Shown: one piece after another, positions 10,166 through 54,180 of the stretch | Numbering within the stretch: position 1 is the stretch's first letter | How the letters are laid out: each line of letters opens with the position of its first letter | Source: Chloroflexota bacterium | GTDB lineage: Bacteria; Chloroflexota; Anaerolineae; UBA1429 | DNA length: 64,000 nucleotides | NCBI GenBank assembly: GCA_012719135.1 | Contig: JAAYAW010000070.1 | Location: 36,357 to 100,356, forward strand | Direction of reading: 5' to 3' | The notes under the pieces: generated by a model | What the model was told of the DNA's origin: nothing | The model's database searches: none | Seen by the model: only the letters and a program-made list of their open reading frames with translations | Position numbers and translations under genes: made by a program

Positions 10166-11290
10166 TCAACGGGTTTTGACGCCCTGGCTGCGGGCCCACC
10201 TGGCCAGCATTCGTACGCGTTCGATCGCCTCAGCGCCCGCCCCTTCAGGCACTTCATCCGAGATCCCCAGCACCAGGTTAGGATGAAATAGAGATACCAC
10301 CCTCTCGGCACAGGCCATCAACTCTTCACGCGAGTACGTGTCCGTGAAGAGTACGGCCGGAATACCGTCCAACAGGATCTTGTCCCCAATGTACTCACGG
10401 ATTTCGTCCAGCGTCACATCGCCCTGCGGTTCCGGCGTGAGCGCCTCCAGCCCATCGAACGGCAGATCCCCCAGCAGGGGAAGGAGAGAGTGAAAGTACC
10501 CATCCAAGTGGACGTGGGTGATTATGCCAGCGGAGCGCAGCTGGCCCGCTCTGCGGTGATACCAGGGCAGCAAATAGCGGACGAACCAGGCCGGCGAGAA
10601 GAGGCTATCATGCAGGTTCTCGCCAAAGTTGACGATGCGCGCCAGCCCTCCCGCGATCAGTTCATCGTATAACGCATCATAGGACGAATCGATCGCATCC
10701 ATCGCCTCATGCACTTGTGTTGGGCAATCCGCAAGGGCGTACACGAGATCGGAAAGACGCATCCACTGCTGAGCAAGCGCCTGGTACGGGCTCTTGGGCA
10801 CCCAAAACCCAGGCTGACCGCGGTCTCCGATCCACAGGCTTCCTTCCTGATAGAGGTTACTGTCAAAGTGATACCGCATGTGGCGAAACAGCCACGCGAG
10901 GGCTCGCAGGTCGTCCTCGTTCTGCACCGCAAAGCCGGTGACACGCCAGGCGTTATCCAGCGTCAGATGCTGCGTCTCAACCAGGTCGCCGCAGGGCGTT
11001 CGGTAGACGCGCGTCAGGCGATCCCCATCTCGCTGCTCGATGAGGGCTACCTCGCTCTCGTACTCGACGACAATCGGGGACTGCAATCCACTGTAGTACT
11101 GGAATGTGCGCATGCTGCAATCGCAAGCATCATAAAGGCCGCGCAGATCCAAGCCGGCAAAGGCTTCAGGCATCTGGCCGAATTGGGTGTGCCAGTCGAA
11201 CCAGGGCTCCATGCGCGGCTGAAACAGCACGTGCGGCACAGGCTGCCGCTGGAAGACACGCAGGTTCATCTCGCGGAAAGACATGCGCAT
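10166..11290 (-). CDS. Uroporphyrinogen decarboxylase (URO-D) family-like protein
   Basis: URO-D-like organisation: LFQPRMEPWFDWH N-terminus, VHLDGYFHSLLPLLGDLPFDGLEALTPEPQGDVTLDEIREYIGDKILLDGIPAVLF C-terminal half; start codon uncertain. Confidence 0.7.
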   Translation of the reverse strand: MRMSFREMNLRVFQRQPVPHVLFQPRMEPWFDWHTQFGQMPEAFAGLDLRGLYDACDCSMRTFQYYSGLQSPIVVEYESEVALIEQRDGDRLTRVYRTPCGDLVETQHLTLDNAWRVTGFAVQNEDDLRALAWLFRHMRYHFDSNLYQEGSLWIGDRGQPGFWVPKSPYQALAQQWMRLSDLVYALADCPTQVHEAMDAIDSSYDALYDELIAGGLARIVNFGENLHDSLFSPAWFVRYLLPWYHRRAGQLRSAGIITHVHLDGYFHSLLPLLGDLPFDGLEALTPEPQGDVTLDEIREYIGDKILLDGIPAVLFTDTYSREELMACAERVVSLFHPNLVLGISDEVPEGAGAEAIERVRMLARWARSQGVKTR

Positions 11291-11384
11291 TGCCAACACC
11301 TACCGCCTGCACCCGGCTAACGTCAACGCGTCGAGCATAGCACCGGGCGAGCGTCACAGTCAACGGCCCCATCCAGCACGCTGC

Positions 11385-11422
11385 AACACAAAGGCCGAAG
11401 CATCGCACTGAATGCTTCGGCC
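11385..11422 (-). terminator. Intrinsic-like terminator of the candidate ncRNA
   Basis: 11-bp perfect stem ggccgaagcat/atgcttcggcc with 8-nt loop; minus-strand tail TTTGTGTT, plus-strand tail not U-rich. Confidence 0.65.
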
Positions 11423-12243
11423 TGCTGGCAAAGGGACAGGACCCCAAGTGACCTTTGCCCGTTCCTGGTTCGGTGGCTCATCTGTTGCGACTCGACATCG
11501 CTTTGTGCTGCTATCGACCTCGACGGCTTTACGTGTCAGAGACCGAGCGCAGTCACCGGCAATCTCGAGAACCGCTCACACATGGTCGCTCAACTGGCGC
11601 CAATCCCGAGCCTACCCGCACGGTTATCGCTGGCCATGCTTTGCGCCCACCTCACCTGGCCGCCTTGCGACGCCCCAGCGAGCTGCGCTGCCCCTCCTTC
11701 AGCCGCACGCCTTCCTTCCGGTCCGCGCCTGTGGCTGCGATGTGGCAAGCATGCCCCTCCAGTCGCTCTGACGCGCTGGCTGATGCCAGCAGCGCCTGGA
11801 GCTCCTGTCTGGCCGAGCTTGGCGTCTTGGCCGCACCCGAGATCACCGCCCCTGGTGCGATCCCACGCTGAGACCCCCCTCGGCCGCGCTGGCCGCTTGC
11901 GCCGCCAACCGACCTTCTGAGATAGCGCCCTCCGCTGCCGGATTGCTCCGCCAGCCGCTGGCGCCGTCCCCGGGCTACCCTCTCAAGCGTCTTTCGGGTT
12001 CACCCGTAATCACGGGCCGTCCCTGCCGACACTTGAGCGCACGCCCTGAGGCTTCTCTATCGGGGCAAGTGACTTTCGCGCTTTCGCCCCGCCAGCCCGT
12101 CCGTTGTTAACCGGCCTGGTCTCCAACAGCTCCGGATTCGCACGACCCTCCGTCTGTACTCACGTACTCCGGCCGGGCCGTTGCCAATCTCCCGACTGCC
12201 AGTCCCCCCGTGAGGAACGTTCTCCAACCTCTCGGGATCCTGT
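11385..12243 (-). ncRNA. Candidate large structured non-coding RNA (~860 nt), family not recognised
   Basis: Near-consensus promoter upstream, hairpin terminator at the 3' end, no long credible ORF on either strand, multiple perfect hairpins (for example 11982-11991/12028-12037; cccgt-aatc-acggg 12003-12016; 12156-12167; 11427-11434/11452-11459). Confidence 0.6.
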
Positions 12244-12249
12244 GCGGAA

Positions 12250-12278
12250 ATCATAGCAGACGCAGAGGGCCGTGTCAA
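12250..12278 (-). promoter_or_regulatory. Strong sigma70-type promoter driving the candidate ncRNA
   Basis: Minus strand TTGACA (12278-12273) - 17 nt - TATGAT (12255-12250); TSS expected near 12243. Confidence 0.8.
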
Positions 12279-24362: not shown

Positions 24363-24438
24363 TGGTGGAGCTGAGGGGAATCGAACCCCTGGCCTCTTGA
24401 ATGCCATTCAAGCGCTCTCCCAGCTGAGCTACAGCCCC
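24363..24438 (-). tRNA. tRNA-Ala (anticodon GGC), 3' CCA encoded
   Basis: Cloverleaf GGGGCTGTAGCTCAGCTGGGAGAGCGCTTGAATGGCATTCAAGAGGCCAGGGGTTCGATTCCCCTCAGCTCCACCA; anticodon loop ATGGCAT. Confidence 0.96.
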
Positions 24439-24527: not shown

Positions 24528-24600
24528 TGGAGCTGAGGGGATTCGAACCCCTGGCCTCATCAGTGCGATTGATGCGCTCTCCCAGCTGAGCTACAGCCCC
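24528..24600 (-). tRNA. tRNA-Ala (anticodon CGC), CCA not encoded
   Basis: Cloverleaf GGGGCTGTAGCTCAGCTGGGAGAGCGCATCAATCGCACTGATGAGGCCAGGGGTTCGAATCCCCTCAGCTCCA; anticodon loop ATCGCAC. Confidence 0.96.
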
Positions 24601-25626: not shown

Positions 25627-25699
25627 AGCGGGTGATGGGATTCGAACCCACGACATTCTGCTTGGGAAGCAGACACTCTGCCAACTGAGTTACACCCGC
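25627..25699 (-). tRNA. tRNA-Gly (anticodon CCC)
   Basis: Cloverleaf GCGGGTGTAACTCAGTTGGCAGAGTGTCTGCTTCCCAAGCAGAATGTCGTGGGTTCGAATCCCATCACCCGCT; loop TTCCCAA. Confidence 0.95.
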
Positions 25700-53892: not shown

Positions 53893-54180
53893 CAAAAACG
53901 CTCCCGTCCCTTGAGGGACGAGAGCTGCTGGAGCATCCCGCGGTACCACCCTGATTGGCATACGCCCACTCACCCTGCGCAACACCGCGGCCGCCGTGCT
54001 TTGGCTGATACAGGAGCGCCCTGGTAACGAGGGGCGAATCCGGGCACGTCTACTGGGCCGCTGCCGTTTGAGTGCCAGCTCGGGAGGGATCTTCGGTCAC
54101 AACCAACGCACCCGGATCACACCTCCCCGGGCTCTCTGAGCGTGGCCTGTGACGTACTCGTCTCCGTCATAGCCTGTAAC
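53893..54180 (-). promoter_or_regulatory. T-box leader (putative Ile specifier AUC) with terminator upstream of ileS
   Basis: Minus strand GACGGAGACGAGTACGTCAC start, AGAGAGCC, putative specifier ATC (54090-54088), T-box AGGGTGGTACCGCGG (53952-53938), terminator GCTCTCGTCCC-TCAA-GGGACGGGAGCGTTTTTG. Confidence 0.92.

Follow-up and report, generated by a model that had tools for sequence, protein, structure and literature searches.

We found that the minus strand of the window (the whole stretch of DNA that was analysed, 64,000 nt from a Chloroflexota bacterium) carries one member of a family of autonomous, structured RNAs that are non-coding and have their own promoter and closed ends. This is shown by comparative evidence, and there are no transcript data. 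The family is new in that it is absent from Rfam 15 and from the open-access literature searched, and it spans the phylum Chloroflexota; its shared fold is backed by covariation in diverged relatives. Large structured bacterial RNAs without known function are rare. The present family offers clear boundaries, a covariation-supported fold and minimal members of ~240 nt that are suited to structure work, and its natural two-module and greatly expanded versions make the question of the role of ornate RNAs directly testable.

The window locus and its close orthologues

The earlier note, made from the sequence alone, had proposed a novel structured non-coding RNA of ~860 nt delimited by a promoter and a terminator. 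Both of these elements lie on the minus strand where it had placed them (Table 1), and the hairpins that it named exist in the sequence. The -10 box of the promoter is preceded by TG, and a scan of this region for promoter-like sites gave 3 sites versus 0.3 expected. In family f1, to which the window genome belongs, true copies with upstream flank likewise read TTGAC-18-TANNNT, ~7 nt and then the RNA start CAGRRYYYYGAGRG. The proposed boundaries held only in part: relatives put the conserved ends at ~12243 and ~11436, where they pair with each other in a 13-bp closing helix (P1). The size of ~860 nt is true of the window locus, not of the RNA family. The orthologues do not show one hairpin of the earlier note, GGCAAAGG/CCTTTGCC (11427-11459), which moreover competes with the closing helix, and this part of the reading was corrected.

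Table 1. Features of the RNA locus, in window positions
Feature	Position	Strand	Details or basis
Sigma-70-type promoter TTGACA-N17-TATGAT	12250..12278	-	TTGACA 12278-12273, TATGAT 12255-12250
Conserved RNA unit, 808 nt, two ends paired together	11436..12243	-	Fold and orthologues L007/L065, L008/L086
Closing helix P1, 5' strand ACAGGAUCCCGAG	12231..12243	-	Pairing/covariation in 22 sequences
Closing helix P1, 3' strand CUUGGGGUCCUGU	11436..11448	-	Pairing/covariation in 22 sequences
Conserved A of A.A mismatch and inner helix 5' strand (A-GGUU)	12226..12230	-	
Inner helix 3' strand and mismatch A (GGUC-A)	11449..11453	-	
Hairpin domain, internal loop GGCAGGGA...GAACCCGAAAG	11982..12037	-	Well conserved in two large orthologues
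Terminator-like hairpin, 13 bp, T-rich tail TTTGTGTT	11392..11423	-	
URO-D-like gene downstream of the RNA (context only, not part of the RNA)	10166..11299	-	Orthologous neighbour in G001, G004

When the locus was compared by blastn with 60 relatives, collinear pieces were found in one genome of the same genus (G001) and one of the same family (G004). Their RNAs (778 and 927 nt from the 5' CAG to the end of the 3' motif) lie at the orthologous position, again upstream of the URO-D-like gene, and analogous hairpins follow them. The only blocks kept between these copies and the window are the start, GGTTAACAA, GGCAGGGAxGGCC...GAACCCGAAAG and the end. The conservation of the hairpin domain listed in Table 1 rests on the block GGCAGGGAxGGCC...GGTGAACCCGAAAG. 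By inference, this domain is probably a relative of the family's core hairpin; the core models R1 and R2 (described below) give no score there. Because neither model scores the large copies (those of the window, of G001 and of G004), we could not place the core of the smaller members on the 808-nt RNA with confidence. The equivalence of the core in these three copies rests on P1, the ends, the promoter and synteny, and the resemblance in motifs is only partial.

The RNA from 12243 to 11436 folds at -418.8 kcal/mol, with a z of about -10 relative to 20 dinucleotide shuffles. It is unlikely to be coding, because the best frame by protein-level similarity to an orthologue (from 12278) contains in-frame stops and many non-triplet indels in the nearest relative and the mismatches are distributed evenly among the three codon positions (15/12/17 and 19/22/21). 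No conserved ORF or coding signal was found in the orthologue comparison, and a search of the window region against Rfam 15 (cmscan, E-value mode) gave no match save one chance match far below the cut-off. The conditions that the earlier note had named as refuting its reading were checked: the Rfam scan was negative, there was no conserved ORF, and relatives proved to be strongly conserved in both nucleotides and structure, with covariation. The earlier reading of a novel structured non-coding RNA is supported, still without transcript data, and the finding is larger than the earlier note supposed.

Several further observations concern the window. An internal GGGGCGAAAG...GUCACUUGCCCC element at 12057-12090 (minus strand) resembles P1 with its conserved GUCACUUG, and a similar element occurs in L065; it is possibly an internal duplication. 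The URO-D-like protein (377 aa) has copies ~67-70% identical in related genomes, and it gave no Pfam match and no credible NCBIfam match. Other RNAs of the window, all on the minus strand, are a T-box leader at 53911-54179, just above the cut-off, and three tRNA genes (24366-24438, 24528-24600 and 25627-25699).

Distribution and shared fold of the family

Searches with the promoter plus 5' motif, with the 3' motif and with covariance models yielded ~24 relatives across 14 of the 15 genomes of family f1. The 3' motif AAAGGTCACTTGGGGTYCTG (≤2 mismatches) is present in 11 of these 15 genomes; among ~380 other genomes of the class it occurs in three places only, which we judged to be chance by their surroundings. 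The combined promoter and 5' pattern recovers loci whose copy has its upstream flank, and in 264 Gb of genomes it matched 27 stretches. Four of them were chance matches (Ruminococcus, Thermomicrobiales, Alphaproteobacteria and Lachnospiraceae) and one (L080, on a contig of a candidate division WS1 MAG) was a duplicate identical to the Chloroflexi copy L075, which we treated as probably misbinned. The remainder were all Chloroflexi/Anaerolineae MAGs. Other loci (L011-L013, L061, L072, L074, L085, L123-L128, L134 and L142-L144) were rejected as chance or coding matches. A same-family genome that is 99% complete (G006) gave no match, nor did many genomes of the class, which possibly means that the RNA is dispensable there or that it was missed.

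Copies in f1 number 1-4 per genome, lie at different sites and, when full, measure 215 to 929 nt. The window genome has one copy by the pattern search, and R1 and R2 add no credible further match. In G003 (L028, L030 and L031, on C59, C60 and C561), two contigs have ~127 nt of the 3' end of the RNA in common and part immediately beyond its U-tract, which may reflect strain variation or a recent duplication. A cobalamin riboswitch lies near one RNA copy (L083:5049-5200, plus strand).

The core model R1 (57 positions), which recovered the held-out copy L071, finds real relatives in other families, and a second model, R2, adds more within the class. Beyond f1, ~17 relatives belong to other families of the class, and R2 found two more outside the class (L140 and L141). 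P1 is clear in L141, whereas L140 is the weaker case, with a shorter P1 (8 bp plus mismatches) that was read by eye. The suggestion in the earlier note that the RNA is possibly lineage-specific is therefore only partly right, as the family reaches beyond the class. In the relatives beyond f1 the closing helices consist of wholly different bases (e.g. GGTAGCCCCAAGA/TCTTGGGGCTACC and AATTAGAGAGGGTTCCAA/TTGGGGCCCTCTCTAATT) and start directly after a TTGACA promoter. What the relatives have in common is the promoter spacing, the closing helix, a GNRA-rich junction core and the U-tract; the promoter spacing and P1 recur in complete copies, and the U-tract mostly follows. The typical length is 240-285 nt and the overall range 215 to 930 nt, indicating that the window copy is an expanded form.

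The shared fold is supported at several levels. P1, which is 13-18 bp long across the family, had 98.4% of cells paired in 22 sequences, compared to 24-51% when the strands were slid, and five of its pairs show two-sided changes, with exchanges that include G-C/A-U, C-G/U-A and A-U/G-C. In eight members of 300-410 nt, 92.4% of cells were paired and two-sided changes affected 22 of 56 pairs (3-9 when slid). An alignment of 14 sequences from seven families (f12, f16, f30, f45, f47, f50 and f62, of which f62 lies outside the class) had 90.3% of cells paired and two-sided changes in 40 of the 48 consensus pairs (11-20 when slid), and its covariation score was 0.598 versus 0.29 for shuffled and 0.10-0.21 for slid controls. 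The rows of this alignment were aligned by sequence only, and it also served to derive the structure; some of the excess in paired cells is therefore to be expected, which hardly applies to the excess of compensatory changes.

Of the hairpin loops, 35% are of the GNRA type versus 4% in shuffles, and many of the junction hairpins are GNRA-capped, one of them having a purine-rich internal loop (GGAAA/GGGAA). The short conserved motifs of the junction are CCGURAG, GGAAA/GGGAA and AAGUAAGU. A GAYAAY/RUURUC helix framing the junction was seen by eye in canonical members; it is out of register in the alignment and so was not counted.

Some copies contain more than one unit. In L155, from family f30, a single promoter (TTGACC-17-TATACT) precedes two modules that are separated by a few nt and followed by a single U-tract, and L152 and L156 have the same two-module layout with a longer leader. 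This lineage, as judged without transcript data, transcribes two complete modules head to tail. In L077 an inner segment is repeated within one P1.

Possible functions of the RNA

We asked what the RNA might do. The neighbours of f1 copies differ and include varied metabolic genes. Copies in f8, f16 and f45 have just downstream a phosphoribosyltransferase gene that is convergent and, by sequence, hpt-like, and Pfam PF00156 was present in the four such genes that were scanned; as this neighbour is common to the three families, that locus is old. Two exact patterns, run against 2.9 million viral contigs, gave 0 matches. Since the neighbouring genes vary, the RNA is probably trans-acting. The explanation that we put forward is a trans-acting stable RNA or RNP scaffold, possibly homo-oligomeric; its function is unproven and the explanation may as readily prove wrong as right. 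It builds on the parts that the comparisons do show, namely a strong sigma-70-type promoter, two ends sealed by P1 and, inside P1, a conserved hairpin junction as the core; P1 would protect the ends. The RNA would then act in trans as a stable and abundant scaffold (both the abundance and the action in trans are inferred), and the core may bind a protein partner and/or other copies of the RNA, which is again an inference, with no partner identified. The outer hairpins would be free to vary, as in other RNPs, and the window copy would be the core plus several hundred nt of lineage-specific outgrowth. The head-to-tail duplication within one transcript suggests that two modules may work together, and beyond this tandem transcript, itself only suggestive, there is no evidence for oligomers. 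A bolder reading, against which we lean, is a phylum-level class of RNA that self-assembles or is a ribozyme by means of a ~260-nt junction module, in monomeric, fused two-module or >800 nt forms.

Among the alternatives, a regulatory RNA that sequesters a protein in the manner of 6S RNA or CsrB, with purine-rich-loop hairpins titrating a regulator and longer or duplicated RNAs offering more sites, remains possible. Each RNA has several hairpins, some with purine-rich internal loops, the promoter is strong, and the growth in size, the paralogues and the tandem modules would fit dosage. Against it, 58 of 60 relatives lack CsrA, the window genome among them, no 6S match came from the Rfam scans of the RNAs, and the fold is a multi-branch junction rather than a rod with a central bubble. 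A ribozyme or an RNase-P-like catalytic RNA, in which the junction core is conserved and the periphery varies freely, would agree with the short junction motifs, the highly variable peripheral domains and the GNRA enrichment; we consider it unlikely, as RNase P RNA lies elsewhere in the genome, no known catalytic motif was found and there is no Rfam match.

Even less support remains for the last two alternatives. A cis-acting leader or attenuator of the downstream gene could be suspected from the URO-D-like gene that follows on the same strand in the window and the two orthologues, but the genes downstream of other copies are unrelated or convergent and a terminator or U-tract ends the RNA before the gene, which makes this reading very unlikely. 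If the RNA were a mobile or selfish element, spreading as a unit, this would account for the 1-4 copies at different sites in f1 genomes and for the two G003 contigs diverging right at the U-tract. This too is very unlikely: no transposase was noticed near the inspected copies, orthologous loci are retained from one genus to another, the paralogues are strongly diverged, and the two exact patterns found nothing in viral contigs. The scaffold remains our preferred reading.

Comparison with known RNAs

Finally, we compared the family with known RNAs. RNase P RNA and tmRNA also have a conserved core, a variable periphery and paired ends. Both were located elsewhere in the genome: RF00010 lies at C85:28610-29016 (275.9 bits), RF00023 matches lie on C35 and C67, and the window RNA matches neither model. 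The two tmRNA matches (L108 and L109, at C35:713-1102 and C67:19958-20346 of G000) are full-length and above the Rfam cut-off; two in one genome is unusual and possibly reflects a duplicate or contamination. 6S RNA was rejected on the absence of an RF00013 match in the RNAs scanned and on the fold, and a CsrB/RsmZ identity on the distribution of CsrA, which was found in only two of 60 class genomes (G013:C214, L159, and G025:C17, L158). Bacterial Y RNA is similar in that its two ends pair in a closing stem that contains a conserved mismatch, and a U-tract often comes next. This reading was rejected, as the TROVE/Ro60 (Rsr) protein was found in none of the 15 family genomes while a Deinobacterium control genome was positive.

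In the RNA region of the window and 16 further loci, cmscan in E-value mode gave no match to OLE, GOLLD or ROOL and no other credible Rfam match. The open-access literature that was searched holds no description of this RNA; an unpublished or paywalled account is possible. OLE RNA (Ornate Large Extremophilic) is similarly a large ornate non-coding RNA with a conserved core, but it belongs to another phylum, the minimum size of the new family is ~215-260 nt, and there is no Rfam OLE match. GOLLD and ROOL, the functions of which are also unknown (PMC12286853), share the size class of the window copy and its ornate hairpins. Their genes lie in phages and prophages, in many cases close to tRNA islands (PMC12286853), whereas the new family had no viral-contig matches with the two exact patterns, has metabolic genes as neighbours and has no Rfam match. 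OLE, GOLLD and ROOL, all of which form homo-oligomers (PMC12286853), are the nearest known RNAs in style, not by homology.
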